Part shown: positions 7,319 to 27,921 of the stretch, piece after piece
Layout of the letters: each line of letters starts with the position of its first letter
Position numbering within the stretch: the first letter of the stretch is position 1
Assembly (NCBI GenBank): GCA_002070605.1
Contig: MWDO01000030.1
Span: 1 to 34,029 of the forward strand
Reading direction: 5' to 3'
DNA length: 34,029 bases
Origin: Spirochaetes bacterium ADurb.Bin133
GTDB lineage: Bacteria; Spirochaetota; GWE2-31-10; MWDO01
Translations under genes and position numbers: made by a program
The notes under the pieces: generated by a model
Database searches by the model: none
What the model was told of the DNA's origin: nothing
What the model saw: only the letters and a program-made list of their open reading frames with translations

Positions 7319-8527
7319 TCAATCTTTCTGAACCAAAGATTCTATTCCAATTTGCAATCCAAAAAGGTTGATAAATCCTCTGGAGTCTTTATGGCTGTAG
7401 TTGTCGCCCGTAGCAAACGAAGCGATGTCGGCGTCGTATAGAGAATATTTTGAATCTCTACCGGCTATAATAATATTTCCTTTATATAGCGCGAGTTTAA
7501 CCGATCCCGTTGCATATTTCATCAATTCCCGAATAAAAGTCTCCATTGATCTTCGCAAATTTGTAAAATATTTTCCGTTATAAACCATTTCCGCATACTG
7601 AGAAGATAGATTGTTCACAACTTTTAACGAATCCTTATCCAAAACCATCATCCTTAACTCTTGTAACGCGGCGTATAAAATCGTTCCGCCGGGCGTCTCG
7701 TAAACCCCATGGCTTTTCATTCCTACCAATCTATTCTCCAAAATGTCGGATCTTCCGACGCCGTTTTCTCCCCCAATCTTATTGAGATAAGTCAAAAGCT
7801 CGACGCCGCCCATTTTCTTACCGTCGATTGAAACGGGGATTCCTTTTTCAAACCCGATCGTAACTTCCGTTTCGCGATCCGGAGCGTCTTTAGGGGATCT
7901 GGATAAAACAAACATTGCCTCGTTCGGGCGGTTTGCCAGATCCTCAAGCTCGCCCCCTTCGTGACTGATATGCCAGATATTTCTGTCTCTTGAGTAAATC
8001 TTAGTCTCGCTTATGCCGCCTAAATCTATATTTTTTTTCTTAGCGTATGCGATAGCGTCTTCGCGCGATTTGATATCCCAGATTCTCCAGGGAGCGATAA
8101 CTTCGAGTTTTGGAGCCAACGATTTATACGTCAATTCAAAGCGAACCTGATCGTTCCCTTTACCCGTGCATCCGTGAGCCAAAGCGTCGCACCCCTCTTT
8201 TAGAGCTATCTCTACCTGTTTCTTAGCCTGCAGCGGTCGGGCGATAGACGTGCCGAGCATATATTTATTTTCATACAGAGCGCCGCACATAGCCATCGGG
8301 AAAATATACTCCTCCACGAATTCTTTTCTCATATCCGCCAAATAAAATTTTGACGCTCCGGTTTTCTTCGCTTTTTCTTCAAGCCCGTCGGTCTCTTCGC
8401 CTTGCCCAACGTCTACGCATACAGCGACGATCTCGGGATTATTATAATTCTCTTTTAGCCATGGTATAATTATCGACGTATCCAATCCGCCCGAATAAGC
8501 CAAAGCTATCTTCTTTACTCCCCCCAT
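7319..8527 (-). CDS. argG: Argininosuccinate synthase
   Basis: ArgG condenses citrulline and aspartate with ATP in arginine synthesis. The 402-aa length is normal. Motifs: the PP-loop AYSGGLDTS (residues 10-18), HGCTGKGNDQVRFE, APWRIWDIKSREDAIAYA, SRDRNIWHISHEGGELE and LNKIGGENGVGRSD. The ATG has an AGGAG site 8 bases before it. It is the first gene of an argG-ddl unit. No other arginine gene is nearby, so the rest of the pathway must be elsewhere. Confidence 0.97.
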   Translation of the reverse strand: MGGVKKIALAYSGGLDTSIIIPWLKENYNNPEIVAVCVDVGQGEETDGLEEKAKKTGASKFYLADMRKEFVEEYIFPMAMCGALYENKYMLGTSIARPLQAKKQVEIALKEGCDALAHGCTGKGNDQVRFELTYKSLAPKLEVIAPWRIWDIKSREDAIAYAKKKNIDLGGISETKIYSRDRNIWHISHEGGELEDLANRPNEAMFVLSRSPKDAPDRETEVTIGFEKGIPVSIDGKKMGGVELLTYLNKIGGENGVGRSDILENRLVGMKSHGVYETPGGTILYAALQELRMMVLDKDSLKVVNNLSSQYAEMVYNGKYFTNLRRSMETFIRELMKYATGSVKLALYKGNIIIAGRDSKYSLYDADIASFATGDNYSHKDSRGFINLFGLQIGIESLVQKD

Positions 8528-8797
8528 AAAAAACTCCTATATTTTGATAACGCTGTTATTTTTAAAAACAAAAAAACGTCCTTGTAACATATAATATTTA
8601 AAAAAAATAATCAACAATTATAGAATACTTTACGTTATTTATTCGACTACTATCCGCATCTACAGTTCGTGTAAAACTGCGCGAAATATTTAAATGATTA
8701 GATTAAAAAAACGAGTTTGCATAAGTAAATAAAAGAAATACGGAGTTTTTTTTTATTTAAAGTTATAATAATTTGTATATTTTTTTTAAAGTTTATA
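8528..8797. other. AT-rich spacer upstream of argG, no gene seen
   Basis: The first part should hold the argG promoter on the minus strand; a TATAAT on that strand lies near 8612-8620, without a convincing -35. The remainder is A/T-rich without a supported reading frame, RNA motif or repeat copy. Confidence 0.4.
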
Positions 8798-8805
8798 TTG
8801 ACTCT

Positions 8806-8915
8806 TACCGAATTTTTAAACTGTCGGGCGTGTAGCTCTTTTCCCCTCCCAGTTAATCTATATTGCCCGGCGGCCTTAATAAGGCAAAGACCCCGATAAC
8901 ATCGGGGTCTTTTTT
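8806..8915 (+). ncRNA. Candidate small RNA with a C-rich loop
   Basis: Three consecutive stems can be drawn. GTCGGGC (8823-8829) pairs with GCCCGGC (8865-8871), closing a 35-base loop that contains CCCCTCCC (8843-8850). GCCTT-AAT-AAGGC follows (8873-8885). A strong terminator ends the unit (8886-8915). There is no reading frame. The loop sequence CCUCC is complementary to a Shine-Dalgarno core, as in known C-rich regulatory RNAs of Firmicutes. The 5' end is unknown: TATATT at 8794-8799 with TTGTAT at 8773-8778 would start it near 8806, but this is weak. Confidence 0.5.
8886..8915 (+). terminator. Rho-independent terminator
   Basis: AAAGACCCCGAT and ATCGGGGTCTTT form a 12-bp perfect stem around the loop AAC (8898-8900), followed by a T run. 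Because of the flanking A and T runs it could work in both directions. On the plus strand it ends the candidate small RNA, about 150 bases before the phosphatase gene. Confidence 0.92.
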
Positions 8916-9066: not shown

Positions 9067-10179
9067 ATGAAAAAAATAGTCGTCATAGATAGCGGTAATT
9101 TATTAAATCAAAATTTTATAGAATCTTTGCGATTAAAAAAAGATTACTCTATCGAGATCAATCCTTCGATTCCTCATAACGGCGCATTTGTAATATACGC
9201 GACGGAGAAAACTGTATCAAATTATAACGACTACCTTAACTACGATTTTATTATAAAAGTCGATCCTCAAACAAAATCTATATCGAATTACGCAATAGTC
9301 CCAAAAAACAGTCTGAAAATTAGAACTATAAATATGATTATCGAAAAGTTAAATATAGAGATTATTAAGGGTAGCAGAGCTAATTTTAATGAAAACGATT
9401 TGAATATCGCCGAGATTATAAAGGAAAAAAAACTGATTGAACAAGAGAATAAAAATTTTCATAAGGAACTTACATTCGCTTCAGAACTACAAAAAACCCT
9501 TTTGCCAAAACGCTATCCAAAAGAAGATAAAATCAGATTTGCTTCAAAGTATTTACCTACGGCTTACATCGGCGGCGACTTTTTCGACGTTGAGCAAATA
9601 GACGACGATCGCGTCGCCGTTTTTATAATCGACGTTAGCGGTCACGGTATCAAATCGGCGATAATAGCGTCTCTTGTAAAAACATTTTTTGAAAAAGAGA
9701 TAATCAACGCCCCCTCGCCTAAAGATTTTTTTGAAAAACTTAACGAGGAATTTATAAGAAACTTTCGCGACGAAGATTTCCTAACATGCTTCCTTATTGT
9801 TCTCGATTTCAAAGAGATGAAAGCCGTCTACTCTTCGGCCGCTCATCCAAATACAATTTTAATAAAACGCTCGGGGCTTATCGAAGAACTAAAAACGGAG
9901 GGATTTATAGTCGGAATGTTTGAAAACACAAAGTATTACAATATCGAAATAGATATCCATTCGGGAGATAAATTTATCCTATATACCGACGGTATAATCG
10001 AGGTTTTTGGCGAAAATAACGAGCAATACGGTAAAGAGAGATTCGCGTCAAACATAGAGTCGCTAAAAAATAACGATATAGAAGATCTTGCCGACGGCAT
10101 ACTGGCAGAACTGCTATTCTTCTCCAAAGAACCGACGTTCGAAGACGATCTTACGCTGTTGCTGTTTGAGATATTGTAA
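9067..10179 (+). CDS. PP2C-type (RsbU/SpoIIE) serine phosphatase
   Basis: A 370-aa cytoplasmic protein. Residues 145-370 form the phosphatase domain, with metal-binding GGDFFDV (D171), DVSGHG (D189), YTDGIIE and the C-terminal DDLTLLLFE. Such enzymes dephosphorylate anti-sigma-factor antagonists in partner-switching pathways. Residues 1-100 are alpha/beta and may be a degenerate receiver domain (MKKIVVIDSGN start), but no clear phosphorylation pocket is visible. A coiled-coil linker (about 112-145, IIKEKKLIEQENKNFHKEL) joins them, as is common in this group. No anti-sigma factor or antagonist is next to it. The ATG has no clear ribosome site. The start is favoured because the upstream promoter is close and the next ATG would cut the first strand. 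Confidence 0.85.
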   Translation: MKKIVVIDSGNLLNQNFIESLRLKKDYSIEINPSIPHNGAFVIYATEKTVSNYNDYLNYDFIIKVDPQTKSISNYAIVPKNSLKIRTINMIIEKLNIEIIKGSRANFNENDLNIAEIIKEKKLIEQENKNFHKELTFASELQKTLLPKRYPKEDKIRFASKYLPTAYIGGDFFDVEQIDDDRVAVFIIDVSGHGIKSAIIASLVKTFFEKEIINAPSPKDFFEKLNEEFIRNFRDEDFLTCFLIVLDFKEMKAVYSSAAHPNTILIKRSGLIEELKTEGFIVGMFENTKYYNIEIDIHSGDKFILYTDGIIEVFGENNEQYGKERFASNIESLKNNDIEDLADGILAELLFFSKEPTFEDDLTLLLFEIL

Positions 10180-16997: not shown

Positions 16998-18158
16998 ATG
17001 AATATACTTCTCGTTCATAACTACTATAAAATTAGAGGCGGCGAGGACTCGGTTTTTGAAAACGAATCCGCCGAGCTTGAAAAAAGAGGTCATAAAGTTA
17101 TCAAATACGTTAAAAAGAATTCTGAGATCGATAAGTATAATTTTTTTCAAAAAATACTATTTTTCCCAAGATCCGTATATAATTTTAAAACCGTCGACGA
17201 TCTAAAAAAAATCCTAAAAAACGAAACTATCGACGTCGCTCATATACACAACGTTTTCCCGCTAATATCCCCTTCTATATATAGATTTTTTAAGAAAAAA
17301 GGCTTTAAAACAGTTCAAACGATTCATAACTACAGATTTTTGTGTCCAAACGGGCTTTTTTTCAGAAACGGAAAAGTCTGCGAACTTTGCGTCGGGGAAT
17401 ATTTTTATAATGCGGTAAAACATAAATGCTATAAAAATTCTAAAATATTTTCGCTTCTTTACTCTGCAATAATAAAACTAAATTATAACGTATTTAGAAA
17501 CTTCATCGACGGATATATAGCTCTTACGAAATTTACTAAACTAAAACTGGTCGATTCGGGATTTAGCGCGGACAAAATATTTATTAAAGCCAACGGCATG
17601 GCGGATAAACGCCGGTCTTTTTCGGAAAATAAAAAATACTTTCTATATATAGGGAGATTATCCAAAGAAAAAGGGGTAGATTTTTTACTGGATAGCTTTT
17701 CAAATATGAAAGATAAAAATTTGATAATTGCCGGGGATTACTCAAAATCGCCGGAATACTTTGAAAAATATAAAGATTGTCCAAATATAAATTTTTTCGG
17801 CTTTGCCGACGAAACGCAAAAAGAGACTCTCATTAATGAGTCGCTTGCGATTATAGTTCCGTCCGTGTGTTACGACAACTACCCCGTCGCTCTTGTAGAA
17901 GCTTTTAGAGCGGGTATAACCGCCGTCGGCAGCTCTATCGGAGGAATTCCTTACATTATCTCCGACGGCGTAAACGGCGAACTTTTTGAACCGAACAATT
18001 TTGAACAATTTAAATCCAAGATTGAAAAATTGTATAACAATGAAGAGCATAGAAGAAAACTAAGCGAAAACGCCCGCTCGACTTTTTTAGAAAAAATGGA
18101 ATTTTCAAAAAATATAACTATTCTCGAAGAGATATATAAAAAAACAAATATTTCCTAA
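16998..18158 (+). CDS. Glycosyltransferase family 4 with Cys-rich acceptor domain
   Basis: I chose ATG 16998 (386 aa). AAGGA lies 8 bases upstream and the protein then begins MNILLVHNYYKIRGGEDSV, a typical GT4 start. An in-frame ATG at 16971 would overlap the previous gene. The acceptor domain has the motif HNYRFLCPNGLFFRNGK followed by CELC and a fourth Cys, seen in a subgroup of GT4 enzymes. The donor domain has FLYIGRLSKEKGVDFLL, NINFFGFADE and a degenerate E-x7-E region (YDNYPVALVEAF). It is likely co-transcribed with the first GT4 and adds a sugar to a surface glycan; flagellin glycosylation is possible from the next gene but not shown. Confidence 0.9.
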   Translation: MNILLVHNYYKIRGGEDSVFENESAELEKRGHKVIKYVKKNSEIDKYNFFQKILFFPRSVYNFKTVDDLKKILKNETIDVAHIHNVFPLISPSIYRFFKKKGFKTVQTIHNYRFLCPNGLFFRNGKVCELCVGEYFYNAVKHKCYKNSKIFSLLYSAIIKLNYNVFRNFIDGYIALTKFTKLKLVDSGFSADKIFIKANGMADKRRSFSENKKYFLYIGRLSKEKGVDFLLDSFSNMKDKNLIIAGDYSKSPEYFEKYKDCPNINFFGFADETQKETLINESLAIIVPSVCYDNYPVALVEAFRAGITAVGSSIGGIPYIISDGVNGELFEPNNFEQFKSKIEKLYNNEEHRRKLSENARSTFLEKMEFSKNITILEEIYKKTNIS

Positions 18159-18181
18159 AAAAAATTTGATACTTCCGATAA
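18156..18181 (+). promoter_or_regulatory. Sigma-28-like flagellar promoter
   Basis: TAAA (18156-18159, overlapping the stop codon of the upstream gene), 15 bases, then CCGATAA (18175-18181). The FliA consensus is TAAA-N15-GCCGATAA; here the spacer is one shorter if the leading G is counted as T. A second CCGATA at 18220-18225 has a poorer -35. Confidence 0.65.
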
Positions 18182-18268: not shown

Positions 18269-19129
18269 ATGATTATCAATCACAATATGGAAGCTGTTTT
18301 TTCCCATAGACAGTATAAAATGATCGGAAATAATCTTAAAAAGGATATCGATAAACTAACCTCCGGAGTAAAAATTAATTCCGCAAGCGACGACGCGGCA
18401 AATCTCGCCGTATCCGACAAAATGCGAAATCTCATAAAAGGCGCGTACCAAGCCGAGAGAAACGCCGAAAACGGAATATCTTTCGTTCAAACGACTGAAG
18501 GATATCTCGACGAATCTCTTAGTTTGGTTCAGCGTATAAGAGAATTATCTATACAAGCGTCGAACGGAGTTTTGAACGACGAAGATCGAGTTTACATTCA
18601 AGTTGAGATAAGCCAATTGATCGACGAAATAGATAGAATAGCTTCCACCGCGCAATTTAACGGACTTAATATGCTAACCGGCAGGTTTTCAGACATAACC
18701 AAGCCGGCAAACAATCCGACCTCTTCTATGTGGTTTCATTTGGGCGCCGGTATGGATCAAAGGGAACAATTCTTTATAGGAACCGTAACTTCCAAAGCTC
18801 TAAAATTGAGGGACTCGGCGAATAATATATTATCCCTCAAAAACGAATCCGCTTCAAACGCTTCGATAGCGGATATAGACGCGGCTATAAGGAAACTTAA
18901 CAGTCAACGCGCCGATCTTGGAGCTTATCAAAACCGACTCGAATCCGCTCTAAAAAAGATTTTATCCGAAGCGGAAAATCTGCAAAGCGCCGAGTCGATT
19001 ATACGAGACGCCGATATGGCGGACGTGTCGGTAAATTACGCAAAAAATAAAATATTGCTTGAAACGAGTAATTCGTTCATTGCTCAAGCAAATATAAAAA
19101 ATATGCGGGTATTTAATTTCATAAAATAA
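18269..19129 (+). CDS. flaB: Periplasmic core flagellin FlaB
   Basis: A 286-aa flagellin of the spirochaete core type. The N-terminal coiled region starts MIINHNMEAVFSHRQYK and continues LTSGVKINSASDDAANLAVSDKMR. The middle has FNGLNMLTG and the spirochaete block WFHLGAGMDQREQFFIGT. The C-terminal region has LNSQRADLGAYQNRLESAL and ends NIKNMRVFNFIK, more divergent than the usual VLSLLR-type ending. There is no hypervariable outer domain, as expected for filaments kept in the periplasm. GCGAGG lies 6 bases before the ATG. It has its own sigma-28-like promoter. No other flagellar gene is in the window. Confidence 0.95.
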   Translation: MIINHNMEAVFSHRQYKMIGNNLKKDIDKLTSGVKINSASDDAANLAVSDKMRNLIKGAYQAERNAENGISFVQTTEGYLDESLSLVQRIRELSIQASNGVLNDEDRVYIQVEISQLIDEIDRIASTAQFNGLNMLTGRFSDITKPANNPTSSMWFHLGAGMDQREQFFIGTVTSKALKLRDSANNILSLKNESASNASIADIDAAIRKLNSQRADLGAYQNRLESALKKILSEAENLQSAESIIRDADMADVSVNYAKNKILLETSNSFIAQANIKNMRVFNFIK

Positions 19130-27792: not shown

Positions 27793-27921
27793 ACGCCCCT
27801 CCCGTATATTTTTTTTAGCAGACCTAATATATTTAACATTACATAAAATTAGCGTATTTTACAATATTTTTTTAAAAAATTCCAAAAAAATAATAGATTT
27901 TTTTTATTATATTTATTATAA

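Follow-up and report, generated by a model that had tools for sequence, protein, structure and literature searches.

A putative sigma28-controlled small RNA of spirochaetes with a loop complementary to ribosome-binding sites of early flagellar genes and ftsZ

The locus and its sigma28-type promoter

Within the window, that is, the whole 34,029-nt stretch of DNA that was analysed, an intergenic locus with its own promoter lies between argG (argininosuccinate synthase, 7319-8527, - strand) and a gene for a SpoIIE-type phosphatase (9067-10179, + strand). A sequence-only reading had proposed a structured small RNA at 8806-8915, and these coordinates hold: the + strand folds with -40.0 kcal/mol versus -24.6 ± 3.4 kcal/mol for shuffled sequences (z -4.5), none of 200 being as good. 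The stem that had been described as closing a C-rich loop exists, but it is longer than the 7 pairs given to it; its 5′ arm (8822-8835, +), which covaries in homologues, forms 14 pairs with a 3′ arm (8858-8872, +) that contains one bulged base, and together they close a 22-nt loop (8836-8857). Inside this loop lies the core UUCCCCUCCCA (8841-8851, +), the proposed pairing site, with CCCCTCCC at 8843-8850. The second short hairpin and the terminator with a 12-bp stem that had been noted downstream were both recovered, the former with 5 pairs and a 3-nt loop (8873-8885, +) and the latter as an intrinsic terminator (8886-8915, +) composed of a 12-pair stem (8886-8912) and a T run. The T run is present only on the + strand, and the terminator is strand-specific in homologues too.

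In agreement with the same reading, 8806-8915 lacks a credible reading frame, since those present start with TTG and span just 20-46 codons, and homologues are distinguished by indels in their stems, which also bears against a reading frame. Chance could be excluded as the origin of the motif, because the window contains the 20-mer around the loop once and shuffled sequences do not contain it at all, and because a DNA search found it unchanged in another genus of the family as well as in a different family of the order. Neither the window nor any of 16 homologous loci gave a score above the gathering threshold of an Rfam 15 family, and a relaxed Rfam search gave only sub-cutoff matches that rested on the terminator (RsaE, 17.9 bits versus a cut-off of 79). 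A tRNA or tmRNA remnant was rejected as the identity of the RNA. A cis leader of argG was considered, since the complement of the loop motif lies upstream of argG on the strand of argG in two genomes; this reading was dropped, since the terminator, the promoter and the covarying structure are all on the opposite strand and the neighbours change in other genomes. We regard it as near certain that 8822-8915 (+) is a small RNA gene of ~95 nt, its transcription being inferred, as no transcript has been seen. A sigma28-type box and a terminator of its own, without a reading frame, are what is expected of a trans-acting base-pairing sRNA, and the locus fits this definition.

The promoter was absent from the sequence-only reading and supplies the context of the RNA. 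Its sigma28 (FliA)-type -35 element TAAAGTTT (8787-8794, +) and -10 element ACCGAATT (8807-8814, +), the latter assigned by sequence and spacing, form the arrangement TAAAGTTT-N12-ACCGAATT, from the position of which a transcription start at ~8820-8823 (+) is inferred. The E. coli sigma28 consensus is TAAAGTTT-N11-GCCGATAA, with a spacing of 21; the two commonest spacings in the spirochaete family, counted from the first T to CGA, are 21 and 22 bases, and the window copy has 22, the more frequent of the two. The combination of T[TAC]AA and a downstream CGA[TA] was found upstream of 71 of the 74 copies collected, versus 3.1 expected from shuffling, and the promoter sequence had been left out of the covariance model that collected them. 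The boxes also match the mapped sigma28 promoter of Treponema denticola flaB2 (-35 TTAA / -10 CCGATAA; PMC9481697), and a flagellin gene in the same genome as the RNA (L189) has nearly the same -10 element, CTTAAGGAATTTATTGAAATTCCGAATTTT. The window's own genome encodes FliA (E 6e-82), as do genomes throughout the phylum apart from groups f36 and f49 (best match only ~1e-34), and no significant RNA copy was found in either of these two groups. Control of the RNA by sigma28 is a strong inference from promoter sequence, and its dependence on sigma28 in vivo is likewise inferred. A flagellin gene (18269-19129), the product of which has flagellin N- and C-terminal domains, lies in the window 9 kb from the RNA gene; the sigma28-like promoter upstream of it, TAAA-N15-CCGATAA (18156-18181, +), served as an internal comparison and is not part of the RNA.

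Homologues across Spirochaetota

Across Spirochaetota, 74 distinct copies from some twenty families were collected. The core motif was searched in 393 genomes of the phylum, where one-letter variants of it turned up repeatedly (TTCCCCTCCCAGTTTA) and suggested that the family was wide. A covariance search in relatives, which had been suggested as a check on the locus, was made with a model of the hairpin alone, without promoter or terminator; it found 47 of the 393 genomes at E < 1e-3, and the weaker matches proved on inspection to have the same promoter and terminator. Among Treponema-family genomes, a pattern joining the -10 box, the stem start and the loop was matched by 37 of 127, versus 0 in a reversed control; a few of the 37 are chance matches. 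No copy was found in the 1,139,633-base genome G058.

The covarying stem, the almost invariant loop core and the terminator are common to the 74 copies, and the second hairpin is present in most of them. The stem varies in sequence, with up to six pair types at single positions, around a loop core that is retained. Among 53 non-redundant copies, the pairing energy of the 5′ arm is -20.2 kcal/mol with its own 3′ arm versus -12.0 kcal/mol with foreign arms, and a median of only 4% of foreign arms pair as well as the own arm. The outer loop letters are group-specific (AGUUUACU, AAUCACU or CCCAC). One copy (L092, in genome G010) carries an extra hairpin (GGGAGCACGAAAGTGCTCC) inside the loop, directly after its C-rich core CCCCTCCCA. 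Matches of an 18-mer in Synergistaceae, Neobacillus and Smithella records were rejected, being without promoter or terminator and as numerous as expected by chance, and the weak model hits L097, L102, L104, L106 and L109-L114 were excluded on the same ground. Literature searches, which did not cover subscription papers, found no earlier report of such a spirochaete RNA.

Complementarity of the loop to translation starts

The fliF Shine-Dalgarno (SD) sequence, GGGAGGGG, is a complement of the loop core. The complement TGGGAGGGGAA was searched in 20 genomes, and GGGAGGGG followed by ATG in 11; among the matches listed, many lay close together upstream of fliA and on its strand. Read from the operons, these sites are the SDs of fliF, ftsZ, fliO, fliI, fliP and fliE, a representative set of which was confirmed by Pfam. 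At fliF, GGGAGGGG is present in 32 of 40 RNA-positive versus 4 of 30 RNA-negative genomes (Fisher p 3e-8). This p value takes no account of kinship, dependence having been handled only by counting families, and genome-level p values are too small because the genomes are related; the fairer contrast is that between families (17 of 19 RNA-positive versus 4 of 18 RNA-negative), the figures of which depend on which genomes were drawn. The mean loop duplex at fliF is -19.8 kcal/mol in genomes with the RNA versus -10.6 kcal/mol in those without, whereas the generic anti-SD energy differs little (-11.0 versus -9.6). Uninterrupted Watson-Crick runs have a median of 10 in RNA-positive and of 4.5 in RNA-negative genomes, and six fliF sites match all 11 loop-core bases.

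The association has exceptions in both directions. Some RNA-positive genomes are without a perfect fliF site (G368, G184, G008 and the T. denticola-like G025), and the RNA-negative families f10, f16, f18 and f40 have GGGAGGGG at fliF (genomes G015, G024, G032 and G116; loci L364, L358, L348 and L356). These families may carry a diverged or undetected copy of the RNA, or their fliF site may have another cause.

In an orthologue table of the ftsZ-to-fliA region, GGGAGGGG was found at fliF in 8 of 9 genomes (the remaining one, G370, having the site at the start read from the operon), at ftsZ in 6 of 8, fliO in 6 of 19, fliI in 3 of 9, fliP in 3 of 19 and fliE in 2 of 9. About 30 other genes of this region, with similar SD strength, have it in 0-1 genomes each; the ftsZ statistics come from eight genomes only. 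Genome-wide, where targets were sought by pattern search only and without a whole-genome ranking, 4 of 9 sites in G374 and 4 of 6 in G297 fell at ftsZ or flagellar starts among the matches listed. Flagellin mRNAs were rejected as the main target, their SD (AAGGAGG or AAGGAGGG) giving weak loop duplexes, and no recurrent gene was found, among the matches listed, as a single long mRNA target (at least 15 of 16 bases). A conserved single-stranded seed complementary to translation-start regions is a further mark of trans-acting base-pairing sRNAs, and UUCCCCUCCCA meets it against the SDs of fliF, ftsZ and fliO. We infer strongly that the loop targets early flagellar mRNAs and ftsZ; pairing in the cell is likewise inferred, without experiment.

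In the window's own genome, fliE and fliQ carry exact GGGAGGGG, and fliF has GGGGGGGG, for which 9 pairs including G-U wobbles were computed (-20.2 kcal/mol). Most GGGAGGGG starts of this genome are non-flagellar among the matches listed, and include rsmH (also in G002), a gyrA/parC-like gene and a rubrerythrin-like gene (start 27792). More widely in the window's family, a GGGAGGGG start was seen at rsmH/mraW, with which the division cluster begins, in two genera (L290, L291), and at type II topoisomerase subunits, gyrA/parC-like (L281) and, by eye, parE/gyrB-like (L292).

The comparative evidence backs both interpretations offered by the sequence-only reading, a small RNA and an anti-SD role of its C-rich loop, by the covarying stem, the kept loop and the terminator in relatives for the one and by the complementarity of the loop to fliF and ftsZ SDs for the other. 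Relatives that kept the terminator and lost the upstream stems and the C-rich loop would have refuted it, and no such loss was seen. The local targets that it had named are mostly not supported. The rubrerythrin-like gene does have the full GGGAGGGG (27796-27803, - strand) and is the only window gene with a complete loop match, but it is just a possible target, because the site was not found at this gene in G002; znuA has GGGAGG, and at the start of the 899-aa gene both GGGAGG and GGAGGGG are absent. Matches recur instead at early flagellar genes and ftsZ, in other parts of the genome.

Proposed circuit, competing explanations and related RNAs

In flagellar systems, it is established that FliA becomes active upon completion of the hook-basal body, and the same is inferred here. 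The late-flagellar sigma28 (FliA) polymerase would make the RNA once the hook-basal body is complete, as judged from the promoter, and the stable stem would present the loop core. The loop could then pair over 8-11 bases with GGGAGGGG-type SDs of early flagellar mRNAs, with fliF (MS ring) as the main target and fliO, fliP, fliQ, fliI and fliE (export gate, ATPase, rod junction) as further ones, and likewise with the ftsZ (cell-division) mRNA. An occupied SD is predicted to block ribosome binding, which would amount to a late-to-early flagellar feedback, with fewer new basal-body starts and the early programme ended while flagellins are made, and to a brake on division via ftsZ. We consider it probable (about 0.76) that the locus encodes a trans-acting RNA of the late flagellar stage, controlled by sigma28, which blocks translation of ftsZ and of early genes for the basal body and export, where transcription, in vivo sigma28 dependence, pairing and repression are inferred. 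Computation has demonstrated the gene with its structure and promoter box, and also that loop and target sequences are coupled across genomes. The RNA is probably a signal to the cell that no new flagella should be built, and nothing of this has been shown at the bench; pairing at the SD predicts repression and does not prove its direction.

A sigma28-dependent sRNA with a general anti-SD loop, lightly repressing many mRNAs among which fliF and ftsZ are not special, is unlikely. In its favour, the loop resembles the anti-SD loop CCUCCUCCC of alpha-r14/NfeR1, chance copies of the complement elsewhere often lie at gene starts, and the GGGAGGGG starts of the own genome are a mixed list. However, such a loop would not lead one to expect the concentration of the site at fliF and ftsZ in many families, its absence from the ~30 neighbours with equal SD strength, its much lower frequency in RNA-negative genomes, or the extra G residues outside the stretch that pairs with 16S rRNA. 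We find it improbable that the loop binds a protein, such as a C-rich-RNA binder or a CsrA partner, and that GGGAGGGG marks where a protein such as CsrA binds and not where an RNA pairs. In favour of this, GGGAGGGG includes GGA, the CsrA core, and can therefore also be read as a CsrA site; the loop core hardly changes over very long distances, CsrA-like hairpins occur in spirochaete flagellin leaders, and CsrA sites have been reported near flaB SDs of T. denticola (PMC9481697). Still, exact complementarity between loop and sites extends to as many as 11 bases, a match that protein binding does not need, and the sites are in no obvious hairpin loop.

Because direction cannot be read from sequence, pairing could in principle activate instead of repress, or the RNA could be a decoy for another RNA; both seem very improbable, since pairing over an SD beside the start codon normally blocks initiation, as established for Campylobacter jejuni CJnc230 on flgM (PMC11187230). 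Hardly any credence is left for the possibility that the locus is just a terminator or leader, with a stem that arose fortuitously and without a role as a regulatory RNA. Intergenic terminators are indeed common and the neighbouring genes differ between genomes, but a terminator needs neither its own promoter nor the covarying stem, near-invariant loop and second hairpin found across the 74 copies, by which this explanation is already contradicted.

Spirochaetes build a fixed number of periplasmic flagella near each pole. The RNA may link completion of a flagellum to two starts, that of another flagellum (fliF, fliO and related genes) and that of division (ftsZ), and thus form an ancient spirochaete counting or checkpoint circuit kept across classes through co-evolving loop and SD sequences; we offer this only tentatively and would rate it slightly below an even chance. 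The RNA offers a concrete and testable circuit for flagellar number and its tie to division, running from a late sigma factor through an sRNA to the translation of the MS ring and FtsZ. Since copies appear to be present in cultured free-living species, it is open to experiment. To our knowledge, few sRNAs are conserved throughout a phylum together with a promoter of recognisable class and a constant set of targets.

The RoxS/RsaE, Yfr1 and 6C RNAs have C-rich single-stranded loops like that of the spirochaete RNA, and belong to other phyla with other promoters and targets. Among RNAs of flagellar systems, E. coli MotR, FliX, FlgO and UhpU (PMC10578931) are comparable in being FliA-dependent sRNAs that tune flagella synthesis post-transcriptionally. 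They are UTR-derived, however, whereas the spirochaete RNA has its own promoter, and MotR and FliX pair inside coding sequences, with Hfq, on flagellin and ribosomal-protein mRNAs, in contrast to an anti-SD loop with matches at fliF, fliO and ftsZ. The sigma28 promoter expected of a sigma28 flagellar sRNA is met by sequence match and family spacing (dependence in vivo being inferred); no sequence relation to these four RNAs and no Rfam match was found, and membership in their homologous, UTR-derived group is not met. Closest in regulatory logic is the C. jejuni set, in which FliA-dependent sRNAs are aimed at earlier (sigma54) flagellar genes. It comprises the sigma28-dependent ncRNAs CjNC1 and CjNC4 (PMC4626219), deletion of which gave no phenotype (PMC4626219), as well as CJnc170 (FlmR) and the RpoN-dependent CJnc230 (FlmE), the anti-SD stretch of which pairs with the flgM ribosome-binding site (PMC11187230). 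These RNAs differ in being limited to Campylobacter, in their sequences and targets, and in having no link to fliF or ftsZ. The rhizobial alpha-r14/NfeR1 RNAs (PMC10746234) similarly present an ultraconserved C-rich anti-SD loop on stable stems of variable sequence, but they have three such hairpins, a nitrogen/symbiosis context and no sigma28 control, and belong to Alphaproteobacteria. With one C-rich loop, CCCCUCCC, and no Rfam match, the spirochaete RNA does not meet the three-hairpin definition of that group. Its inferred function is like that of the E. coli and C. jejuni sigma28 sRNAs and its seed is presented like that of alpha-r14/NfeR1, and it is a member of none of them, since sequence, anatomy and targets differ.

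A separate observation concerns the flagellin loci of the phylum (L166-L195, e.g., L172 and L184), where a leader hairpin with an AAGGAUG loop (e.g., GGCAAGGATGCC) stands before a CAAGGAGG(G) SD, 20-60 nt ahead of the start codon. This resembles a double CsrA site, and it is kept in different families.
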